DNA from: Minisyncoccota bacterium | GTDB taxonomy: Bacteria > Patescibacteriota > Minisyncoccia > Minisyncoccales > Minisyncoccaceae | Reading direction: 5' to 3' | DNA: 17,803 nt | Assembly (NCBI GenBank): GCA_028690275.1 | Contig: JAQVBN010000004.1 | Coordinates: 1 to 17,803 of the forward strand | Shown here: positions 77 to 15,155 of the stretch, piece by piece | Numbering within the stretch: position 1 is the stretch's first letter | Layout of the letters: the number at the start of each line of letters is the position of its first letter | Made by a program: the position numbers and the translations under genes | The notes under the pieces: generated by a model | What the model saw: the letters and a program-made list of their open reading frames with translations, nothing else | What the model was told of the DNA's origin: nothing | Databases searched by the model: none

Positions 77-98
77 AATCCCCTTTAGGGGATTTTTT
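77..98 (+). terminator. Intrinsic terminator, possibly bidirectional, between convergent genes
   Basis: An inverted repeat pairs AATCCCC (77-83) with GGGGATT (88-94) around a TTTA loop. On the plus strand the T-run at 93-98 follows, the classic Rho-independent form for the gene ending at 71. On the minus strand the same hairpin is followed by the less regular CTTTATTATT, so it may also end the miaA message. The repeat runs up to the miaA stop codon at 97-99. Confidence 0.75.
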
Positions 99-1812
99 AT
101 TTTAAAAACTTTTTAACTTCTTTCTCTACTTCTGAATATTTTTTAATCCACTTTATATTTTTATCTCTTTTAAACCAAGTCATTTGACGTTTAGCAAATC
201 TAAAAGTATTTATTTTAATTCTTTCCACTATTTCTTTTATATCTTTATACTCCCTCCATTCACGATAACCAATTGTTTCAAGTAAAAGAGATTTTTTAGG
301 AAAACCCTTAACCTCTTTTTCCAATCCTTCCTTAATCATATCATCAACCCTTTTTTCAATTCTTTCTTTAACTTCTTCTCTAGAAACCTCAATTCCGATT
401 TCTAAAATATCGAATTCTGGCTTATTTTTTGTATTTTTAAAAAAAGTTCTTGTTTTTGTAGCAACTTCAATAGCTCTCACAAGTCTTCTCTTATTCTTTT
501 TATCAATTACCCGCGCCCCTCCTTTATCTAACTTTAAATAAATATTAAAAAGATCTTCTTCGGTTTTTGCTTCCAACTCTTTTCTAAACCTTGAATTGGG
601 TTCGATTTTAGGAAAATCAATATTTTCCACAATAGAAGAAATATATAGACCAGTTCCTCCTGCCAGTATGGGCACCTTACCCCTACTTAAAACGTCCTTA
701 ATCGCTTTTTCCGCATCTTTTTTAAACAAAGCCACATTATACTCCTTCTCAATAGAAATAATGTCTATTAAGTGATGTCTAATTCCATCAACATAATATT
801 CTTTTTTATTTTTATCTTTTTTAGGTTTAGCAATTCCTATATCCATTTTTTTGTAAACCAAACGAGAATCAGCAGAAATAACTTCCCCATTAAATTTTTT
901 CGCTAAATCGATAGCCATTTTTGTTTTACCGGTTGCTGTGGGTCCCAAAACAACAATTAACTTTGCTCTTTCTCCTTCTAGTCCAAAGCTAAGAATTTTA
1001 TTTATTTTTACTTTTACAAAACTACCAATTAAGCCCTCTTCTTTAGATTTAAACTTAACTGTCTTGTAGTCCCATGATTTTCCGACATAATATCCCTTTA
1101 CTTTTTCCAAAACAAGAACATCTAAAACTTTTCCTAAATAACTCTTACTTTTACTCACAACCCCTTTCTTTAAAATGTCGGTTAGTCTCTTGTCTCTCGC
1201 CTTCTTTTCTTTTTTGAAAACATCATCTTTCATTTTAAGAAGAGCATAAGTTCCTGGTCTAGTAGAAAACTGATTGATATATGCCATATCAAAGCTAAGC
1301 TCCTTAAAAGCTCTTTCTGTTTCTTTAAACTCTTCTTCTGTTTCTCCTGAAAAACCAACAATAACATCGGTAGAGATAAAAATATCCTCTCCTCTTTTTT
1401 CCTTAAAAGCTTTCTTGATTCTAATAAACAATTCTTTATACTTCTCGTAAGTATATGGCCTATTCATTCTTTTAAGAACGGAGTTTGATCCTGATTGTAT
1501 TGGAAGGTTTAAATATGGTCCATACTTATCACAATCAACCATTGCTTTAATTAAACTATTCGAAAAATTTCTAGGATGAGGCGAAGTAAACCTAATCCAA
1601 AAATTACCAGGAATATCGTTAACCATTTTTAACAATTTAGAGAAATCTACTCCTTCGAATAAATAGTCATTAACATTCTGACCAAGAAGCCAAACTTCTT
1701 TAGCTCCGCTTAAAGTAGCTAATTCTACTTCTTTAAGAATTTCATTATAATCTCGACACTTAAGTGGTCCTCTTGTATAAGGTACGGCACAATAAGTGCA
1801 AAAATAATACAT
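97..1812 (-). CDS. miaA: MiaB (C-terminal part) fused in frame to tRNA dimethylallyltransferase MiaA
   Basis: 571 codons are open from the ATG at 1812. Residues 1-283 are the MiaB radical-SAM core and TRAM domain: FCTYCAVPYTRG (4-15), LLGQNVNDY (42-50), RFTSPHPR (74-81), and a TRAM-like segment at about 215-283. Residues 284-571 (bases 97-963) are a full MiaA of about 288 residues: P-loop GPTATGKT (290-297), DSR (315-317), GGTGLY (385-390), KRRLVRAIE (441-449), and RQMTWFKRD (542-550). MiaA puts the isopentenyl group on tRNA A37, and MiaB then adds the methylthio group, so the fusion joins consecutive steps. No stop or usual start codon separates the halves. The ATG at 1812 is probably not the true start: it sits inside the MiaB cysteine motif, and the rest of MiaB lies upstream in another frame (1725-2219). 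With one base restored the protein would be 707 residues, of which 419 are MiaB. Confidence 0.9.
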   Translation of the reverse strand: MYYFCTYCAVPYTRGPLKCRDYNEILKEVELATLSGAKEVWLLGQNVNDYLFEGVDFSKLLKMVNDIPGNFWIRFTSPHPRNFSNSLIKAMVDCDKYGPYLNLPIQSGSNSVLKRMNRPYTYEKYKELFIRIKKAFKEKRGEDIFISTDVIVGFSGETEEEFKETERAFKELSFDMAYINQFSTRPGTYALLKMKDDVFKKEKKARDKRLTDILKKGVVSKSKSYLGKVLDVLVLEKVKGYYVGKSWDYKTVKFKSKEEGLIGSFVKVKINKILSFGLEGERAKLIVVLGPTATGKTKMAIDLAKKFNGEVISADSRLVYKKMDIGIAKPKKDKNKKEYYVDGIRHHLIDIISIEKEYNVALFKKDAEKAIKDVLSRGKVPILAGGTGLYISSIVENIDFPKIEPNSRFRKELEAKTEEDLFNIYLKLDKGGARVIDKKNKRRLVRAIEVATKTRTFFKNTKNKPEFDILEIGIEVSREEVKERIEKRVDDMIKEGLEKEVKGFPKKSLLLETIGYREWREYKDIKEIVERIKINTFRFAKRQMTWFKRDKNIKWIKKYSEVEKEVKKFLK

Positions 1813-13916: not shown

Positions 13917-14474
13917 TTAACTTTTTTTAAATGGAAAGTCAAGTAAAGTAAACAATTCTTGAGCTTCTTCTCTTGTCTGTGCTGATGAAACAACTGTAAT
14001 CTGAAGTCCGAAAAGATAATTAGCCTTTTCTGGAGAAATTTCTGGAAAAGCAATATGTTCCTTCATTCCAATATTTAAATTACCATTAGTATCTAGTGCA
14101 CTCAATTTTATTCCTTTAAAGTCTCTTGTTCTTGGTAATACGATATTAATTAACTTGTCTAAAAAGTTATACATTTTCTTTCCTCTAAGTGTAACCTTAG
14201 CTCCGATAACATTTCCCTCTCTTGTTTTAAAAGAAGATATTGATTTTTTAGCTTCTGTCAAAACAGGCTTTTGTCCTGCAAACTCTGCTATTTGAGCAAG
14301 TATATATTGTTCAAACTTCTTTTTTTCGTCATTTGTTTTTGGGATGATAATTTTACCAAAACCAGTGTTGATCACAACCTTTTCTATTTTTGGTACAGCC
14401 ATTACATTCTTGTAAGAAAACTTTTTCATCATCTCACTTTTCGCCTGATTTTGATATTTTTCTTTAATAATCAT
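13917..14474 (-). CDS. rplE: 50S ribosomal protein L5
   Basis: 185 residues, uL5, which binds 5S rRNA and contacts P-site tRNA. Recognisable pieces are VPKIEKVVINTGFG (27-40), AGQKPVLTEAKKSISSFK (67-84), GAKVTLRGKKMYNFLDKL (92-109) and LPRTRDFKGI (113-122). The ending is the usual EEAQELFTLLDFPFKK. The ATG overlaps the rplX stop by four bases, which anchors the end of rplX and shows translational coupling. Confidence 0.97.
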   Translation of the reverse strand: MIIKEKYQNQAKSEMMKKFSYKNVMAVPKIEKVVINTGFGKIIIPKTNDEKKKFEQYILAQIAEFAGQKPVLTEAKKSISSFKTREGNVIGAKVTLRGKKMYNFLDKLINIVLPRTRDFKGIKLSALDTNGNLNIGMKEHIAFPEISPEKANYLFGLQITVVSSAQTREEAQELFTLLDFPFKKS

Positions 14475-14779
14475 ATTTCTTTGTTACACTTTTTACAAAC
14501 CCTCTTCTTTGTATTGTCTTTTGAAAATACGTAAGACACTCTTGTTTTTTTAGAACATTTTGGACAAATTAATTCTACGTTTGAAACATCAATAGGTCTT
14601 TCTTTCTCAACAATCTGACCTTTTTGTCCTTGTCCTTTTGGACGAAGATGTTTCTTTATAATTGCTACTTTTTCTACCACAACCTTACCCTCTTTTGGAA
14701 GCGCTTTTATAACCTGGCCTTTCTTATCTTTATAATTTCCAGCAATAATAATACCTTTATCTCCTTTTTTAATATTTAT
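14471..14779 (-). CDS. rplX: 50S ribosomal protein L24 with an apparent ATA start codon
   Basis: 102 residues if translation begins at ATA (14777-14779). The encoded start is (M)NIKKGDKG, matching the family's usual M-x-I-K-K-G-D. A KOW segment at about 10-27 follows (IIIAGNYKDKKGQVIKAL). The C-terminus has a zinc-ribbon-like cysteine set at 72, 75, 95 and 98 (CPKC and CKKC). The first ordinary start codon in frame is a GTG at 14680, which would delete 33 residues including the whole KOW core, so it is unlikely to be the real start. There is no ATG, GTG or TTG between the rplN stop and the core. The ATA sits in GTATAAAAATATA, the same context that holds ATG in rplN and rpsS. L24 starts large-subunit assembly on 23S rRNA. 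The gap to rplN is 4 bases. ATT at 14771-14773 is a second, weaker start candidate. Confidence 0.85.
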   Translation of the reverse strand: MNIKKGDKGIIIAGNYKDKKGQVIKALPKEGKVVVEKVAIIKKHLRPKGQGQKGQIVEKERPIDVSNVELICPKCSKKTRVSYVFSKDNTKKRVCKKCNKEI

Positions 14780-14783
14780 ATTT

Positions 14784-15155
14784 TTATACTAATTCTTTAG
14801 TCATTGTTGATATCTTCTCAAAGCCTTTCTCTCTAACCTCTCTAGCAACTGGTCCTAAAATTCTAGTTCCTTTTGGCTCTTTTGTTTTTGCATCTAAAAT
14901 TACAACAGCATTATCATCAAATCTAATGTATGATCCATCAACTCTTTTCATTGGTTGTTTTTGTCTAATAATAACAGCTCTAACAACTTGATGTCTCTTA
15001 ACAATCTTTCTTGGTTCTGCTTTTTTAACAGTGCAAACTATAATATCTCCTAATTGAGCATATCTTCTTCTTGATCCTCCAATTGGTCTAATACATAAAA
15101 CCTCTTTTGCCCCTGAATTGTCTGCTACTTTTAGCCTTGATTCTGGTTGTATCAT
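14784..15155 (-). CDS. rplN: 50S ribosomal protein L14
   Basis: 123 residues, uL14, one of the most conserved ribosomal proteins, located at the subunit interface. [19 protein letters not shown] (1-19), a [19 protein letters not shown] strand region, and the ending [15 protein letters not shown] are family hallmarks. It begins 4 bases after rpsQ. In E. coli this is where the S10 operon ends and the spc operon starts; here no gap or promoter separates them, so the two operons are merged. The start context is GATATAAAAATATG, with no Shine-Dalgarno. Confidence 0.98.

Follow-up and report, generated by a model that had tools for sequence, protein, structure and literature searches.

An ATA codon at the conserved start of rplX in a Minisyncoccota genome: a probable assembly error rather than an AUA start

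Introduction

The closest described parallels to the locus studied here come from S. aureus, where infC, ccpN and citZ start at AUA according to the available part of PMC13009471, which describes the citZ case for the NCTC 8325 lineage only. The same part of that source reports extended Shine-Dalgarno motifs for infC, cvfC1 and ccpN, with the ccpN motif conserved as far as B. subtilis. When assayed with reporters in poor medium, ccpN, citZ and cvfC1 yielded from their non-canonical starts about 10% of what AUG gave; in rich medium ccpN reached 30%.

In vitro, weak third-base pairs are excluded by IF3 (PMC10158994, as excerpted). For the initiator tRNA, the portion of PMC10486304 available terms three consecutive anticodon-stem pairs, G29-C41, G30-C40 and G31-C39, highly conserved. 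Our literature searches returned no match on non-AUG start codons in Patescibacteria and, judging by titles, nothing on the subject of a non-AUG start for L24/rplX.

Here we analyse a window of 17,803 bases that makes up the complete contig C7 of an uncultured Patescibacteria draft genome (523,799 bases, 73 contigs, 90.41% complete), in which rplX carries ATA where its start is expected. As assembled, this gene resembles S. aureus infC, ccpN and citZ in having AUA at a bacterial initiation site, and citZ is likewise restricted to one strain lineage. It differs in that it has no visible extended Shine-Dalgarno motif of the kind that the accessible text of PMC13009471 describes for infC and ccpN, shares its ATA with no relative examined and encodes a ribosomal protein.

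Results

The rplX frame and its start

The ribosomal protein genes from rplB to rplO, followed by secY, adk and map, lie on the minus strand of the window, and rplX sits in this spc operon with rplN and rplE on either side. rplN (L14; 14784..15155, minus strand) ends in a TAA at 14786-14784. Four bases further on, a spacing found in four of five same-genus relatives, the rplX frame reads ATA (14777..14779, minus strand). From this codon to the stop the frame occupies 14471..14779 on the minus strand, encodes 102 residues of ribosomal protein L24 and matches TIGR01079 and PF17136. The frame opens past an in-frame TAG (14791-14789) and continues TAT AAA AAT ATA AAT ATT AAA AAA GGA GAT.

A first-pass annotation of this DNA had proposed that rplX begins at the ATA because no ordinary start codon precedes the conserved core. 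In the assembled sequence both halves of that statement hold. There is no in-frame ATG, GTG or TTG from the stop beside rplN to the GTG of codon 34, and the ATA occupies the position of the conserved L24 start. With ATA as the start, the product exceeds the cut-off of NCBIfam TIGR01079 over nearly its whole length (positions 2-104 of 104; 102.4 bits, cut-off 53.7). The only PF17136 match is rplX itself, the single L24 found in the genome. Further candidate weak starts, absent from the first-pass annotation, also lie in the frame: an ATT (AUU) at codon 3 (14771..14773, minus strand) and ATT ATT ATT at codons 10-12 (14744..14752, minus strand). The gene as assembled has AUA at its initiation site and no canonical start there. 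Elsewhere in the window, ATG begins every gene whose start was compared (17 of 18, the exception being rplX). By eye, we saw no Shine-Dalgarno motif in the 30 nt upstream of rplX; GGAG precedes rpsS and secY.

Could L24 begin further in, or not stand alone at all? The GTG at codon 34 (14678..14680, minus strand) is the first canonical in-frame start and would yield a protein of 69 residues; the gene might also be decaying, or L14 and L24 might be fused by frameshifting at the rplN stop, which lies only four bases upstream of the ATA. We regard this group of explanations as the least credible of those considered. Starting at the GTG would delete the first third of L24, leaving a match to positions 35-104 of TIGR01079 alone (67.9 bits), and a search with the 69-residue form found no truncated L24 in the 42 proteins returned, which are clusters at 90% identity that could conceal one. 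Decay sits badly with the finding of one L24 only, whose later codons carry no private change. Against fusion, no relative has the two genes fused: in four of the five same-genus relatives rplN has an identical stop and rplX its own ATG after it, and the fifth (G001) has an ATG that overlaps the end of rplN.

The aligned codon in relatives

When the 21 family genomes were searched at the protein level, rplX turned up in 19, counting the window. At the aligned codon all 18 others have ATG, as does a further contig, L021. The first-pass annotation had noted that the ATA stands in the same context as several ATG starts of the operon and that one G-to-A change would account for it, and had called for a comparison of the rplN-rplX junction with relatives. 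rplN, rpsS and rplR do have their ATG in the TAAAAATATG context, and at the junction it recurs exactly in four of the five same-genus relatives, where the whole spacer is identical. The single change is supported by this comparison; conservation of ATA is not, every relative examined having ATG at that place. A base that departs from its relatives in one assembly only, where those relatives agree, is what an error would look like, and 14777 is such a base. Uniform ATG among relatives is also one half of the combination that the first-pass annotation had named as counting against its claim, the other half being low depth at the site.

The ordinary, ATG-started rplX genes of G001-G005 make the closest comparison. 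They resemble the window in gene order, in a junction that is the same or overlapping, and in protein (75-87% identity); they differ from it at one base of the start codon and at two neighbouring bases private to the window.

Wider sampling gave the same picture. Among 80 loci, collected with six peptide words of which one includes the start Met and which therefore bias the set towards ATG, the aligned codon is ATG in 75. The other five all have an in-frame ATG upstream, which rules out a second case of the ATA type in this set. Across 379 genomes of the phylum, the N-terminal motif occurred in its ATG form in 48, counted by motif alone, and in its ATH form in 27. Four of the 28 ATH matches are rplX by a reading of their translations, and three of these have an upstream in-frame ATG or GTG; the window alone has neither. 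The closest L24 protein cluster (P0001, clustered at 90% identity) is 92% identical and begins MNIKKGDQV. A search of IMG/VR returned a single remote and uninformative match, and the phage records gave none.

Three further observations concern this region. An L5 identical to that of the window is present on three contigs (P0157), the longest of them 17,803 bases as the window is, so the region has been assembled or deposited more than once. The DNA of the rplN-rplX junction (14740-14816) is unusually strongly conserved between the window and four same-genus relatives, and judged from this conservation it may be a coupling or regulatory element. Finally, contig L021 (JAQUBQ010000039.1), titled Clostridia bacterium, is 79% identical over 6,040 bases to the Patescibacteria operon of the window; the record is mislabelled or a mixed bin.

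Private bases around the start

The ATA has company. The window has private bases at 14777, 14758 and 14754, three differences packed into 24 nt of a segment on which the relatives concur. The second and third (14754..14758, minus strand) place Lys for Gln at codon 8 and Gly for Val at codon 9. A fourth difference in the cluster, at 14750 inside the run of ATT codons, sets the window apart from five of the six rows of the alignment and is common to the window and G001. In L24 as a whole there are three private amino-acid changes, at codons 1, 8 and 9, and none at codons 10-102 where the relatives agree. The glycine at position 9 is without precedent: among the 146 homologues with a residue there, 141 have V, five have I and none has Gly. 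The DNA surrounding the cluster is otherwise intact, and codons 2-7 are identical to those of L021, G005 and G003.

This pattern could be taken to mean that the base is real and that initiation has shifted to an AUU, at codon 3 or at codons 10-12, with AAAGGAG eight bases upstream of the latter serving as Shine-Dalgarno and codons 1-9 left untranslated. All three private amino-acid changes would then lie in the abandoned segment, the GGAG is suitably placed eight bases ahead of codon 10, the resulting 93-residue form still scores 93.7 bits against TIGR01079, its match beginning at profile position 11, and AUU starts have a precedent in cvfC1, going by the part of PMC13009471 at hand. Against this reading, the DNA of codons 2-7 is unchanged, and the GGAG belongs to the Lys-Gly-Asp codons and is found in the relatives too. 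Position 7 is Asp in 145 of the 146 homologues with a residue there, so the segment that would be lost matters. On balance we find a shift to AUU very unlikely.

Signs of error on the contig and in the genome

If the ATA is an error, as we favour, does the assembly carry others? We compared 235,864 bases, 45% of the genome, with pieces of five same-genus genomes and one further contig. On the contig of rplX itself, miaB is broken by one base (1782-1803 of the window) inside the radical-SAM Cys motif; both flanks are open, and the gene is in frame in four relatives. This is another disruptive single-base anomaly on the same contig, which is again what error would leave, although the break itself could be real. 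It is the only clear frame break in 166,326 homology-covered bases of the genome, compared with no clear one in G003 (212,932 bases) and a single one in G005 (173,169 bases). These counts leave out a flagged break on L147, for which the evidence is a frame of 73 residues, and two opposite rpsS, in G003 and in G005, called against an antisense frame of L104.

As a side observation on the same gene, the C-terminal part of MiaB and MiaA share one reading frame in the window (97-1812), and relatives G002, G004 and G005 have open frames of 692-706 residues; from these frames a MiaB-MiaA fusion seems normal in the genus.

Errors spread evenly through the genome are another matter. We found no premature stop in the true gene frames of this sequence; each of the two hits lies opposite a frame of the other strand. 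Had substitutions struck the 55,623 compared codons at random, some 30 nonsense changes would be expected for every start lost. With none seen, fewer than about 53 substitution errors are allowed (3 / 0.0566), which corresponds to at most about 0.1 lost starts among the 136 starts sampled. Nor does the window show an excess of radical private changes: it has 7 of 70, and the two relatives that diverge most have 15 of 121 and 5 of 104. With neither premature stops nor radical changes in excess along the contig or the genome, a uniformly bad assembly is ruled out. Since evenly spread errors would give so few lost starts, a reading of the ATA as error must assume a local patch.

Start codons across the sampled genome

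Are AUA starts a habit of this genome? Homology placed 136 starts in the sampled sequence, comprising 128 ATG, one GTG and seven others. Six of these seven have a canonical codon one to six codons away. The remaining one is rplX, with none up to the stop or within 11 codons downstream. A genome-wide habit is rejected for the sampled 45%, in which rplX is the one start of 136 with no canonical codon nearby. The same method applied to two relatives as controls gave two non-canonical sites among 190 in G003, where no canonical start was found for L227:102, and four among 161 in G005, each with a canonical codon within nine.

The first-pass annotation had suggested that AUA might serve to tune the dose of L24. 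This idea is not supported: ATA is present in no relative examined, no Shine-Dalgarno-like motif is seen upstream by eye, and the sampled 45% of the genome holds no other such start.

The initiation machinery

The genome encodes an initiator-like tRNA (anticodon CAU, with an unpaired A.A at 1:72) at G000:C72:14636-14707 (L286). Its anticodon stem is made of C27-G43, C28-G42, A29-U41, G30-C40 and U31.G39. The same stem is present in all 20 family genomes in which the tRNA was found (homologues L285 and L287-L304). In a sample of 142 genomes of the class, the exact 17-base arm occurs in two, this genome included, and the canonical GGG-CTCATAA-CCC arm in 26, with none among the eight of its own order. 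Because relatives that use ATG have the non-canonical stem in common with this genome, the change in the stem is older than the ATA of rplX. The stem of this family could permit weak starts, and is not by itself the cause of the ATA.

Some mycoplasmas also have initiator tRNAs without the three G-C pairs of the anticodon stem, and these mycoplasmas use more non-AUG starts. The family of the window is like them in lacking the three pairs. This genome is unlike them in that its IF3 keeps the residue that aligns with R131, its uS9 keeps the SKR tail, and ATG starts dominate (128/136). The uS9 C-terminus is SKR in this genome and in both relatives that could be read. Aligned to a 180-residue PDB IF3 chain, which we take to be that of E. 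coli, the IF3 of this genome keeps the Arg at 131 and has Ile at 129. Its infC has ATG at the aligned place, and the infC frames of five relatives begin with ATG. Loss of IF3 as an enabling change is rejected, with infC above the cut-off in all six genomes of the genus. Initiator tRNAs with an anticodon stem of four base pairs are predicted to be able to read AUA (PMC13092985, 2026, in its accessible part); the stem here has five pairs, the U.G included.

An initiator tRNA that reads AUA directly was not found. The tRNA with anticodon UAU (G000:C22:9135-9211, L204) has a paired 1:72 end, which marks it as an elongator tRNA-Ile, and the anticodon of the initiator-like tRNA is CAU. Two CAU tRNAs are among those found, one resembling elongator and the other initiator tRNA-Met. 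With a UAU tRNA-Ile present and both CAU tRNAs Met-like, AUA may be read without lysidine in this genome.

Discussion

Assembly error had been offered by the first-pass annotation as one of two ways to understand the ATA. What we have added to that half of the claim is circumstantial, namely the cluster of private bases, a residue 9 that has no precedent and a one-base frame break on the same contig, and it falls short of proof. We nevertheless consider a local consensus error at 14777 to be the most likely reading, at a probability of roughly 0.55, the weights given to all readings being matters of judgement. The initiation site of rplX would be the codon at 14779-14777, which is ATG in every relative examined and ATA here through one private G-to-A difference. 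The cause would be a low-depth or strain-mixed patch in the metagenome assembly, which would also be the source of the private bases 14758 and 14754. L24 would then be made from an ordinary AUG in an A-rich context, with initiation there probably linked to the ending of rplN translation four bases before it.

The second most likely reading is that the base is real and that L24 is made from AUA, though we think it rather doubtful. It would be a sporadic mutation of the lineage and not a conserved device. A ribosome finishing rplN would reinitiate four bases on, with fMet-tRNA(CAU) pairing weakly with AUA, and the resulting drop in L24 output would be tolerated; the weak-stem initiator tRNA of the lineage may help. 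That codons 10-102 lack private amino-acid changes argues that rplX was under constraint until recently, no second rplX was found in the genome, and the lack of nonsense errors in the sampled genome also speaks for a real base. AUA starts have precedents in S. aureus infC, ccpN and citZ (PMC13009471, in part), and the non-canonical anticodon stem of the initiator-like tRNA would suit such a start. Against this reading, ATA is common to no relative examined, and the initiator stem is identical in 19 relatives, of which those with rplX found use ATG. The available text of PMC13009471 gives S. aureus infC, cvfC1 and ccpN extended Shine-Dalgarno motifs, whereas rplX shows none. The genome encodes an IF3 that retains the residue matching R131 in the alignment, and IF3 rejects weak third-base pairs in vitro, according to the excerpt of PMC10158994. 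The unprecedented Gly9 sits beside the ATA codon.

A more far-reaching form of this idea is that a core ribosomal gene is translated from AUA with no Shine-Dalgarno, ribosomes reinitiating there once rplN is finished, and that the initiator tRNA of the lineage, being without the three canonical G-C pairs, discriminates less, making drift from AUG to AUA tolerable. This we think unlikely. For the AUA start in general, a base-level artefact is more likely than biology.

Either outcome has consequences. If the base is wrong, then a universal marker gene has lost its start to one consensus base, and a gene caller could shorten L24 to 69 residues or overlook it. If the base is right, a ribosomal protein gene would be starting at AUA with no visible help from a Shine-Dalgarno motif and, taken with the family's unusual initiator tRNA, it would make start-codon fidelity in Patescibacteria a testable question.
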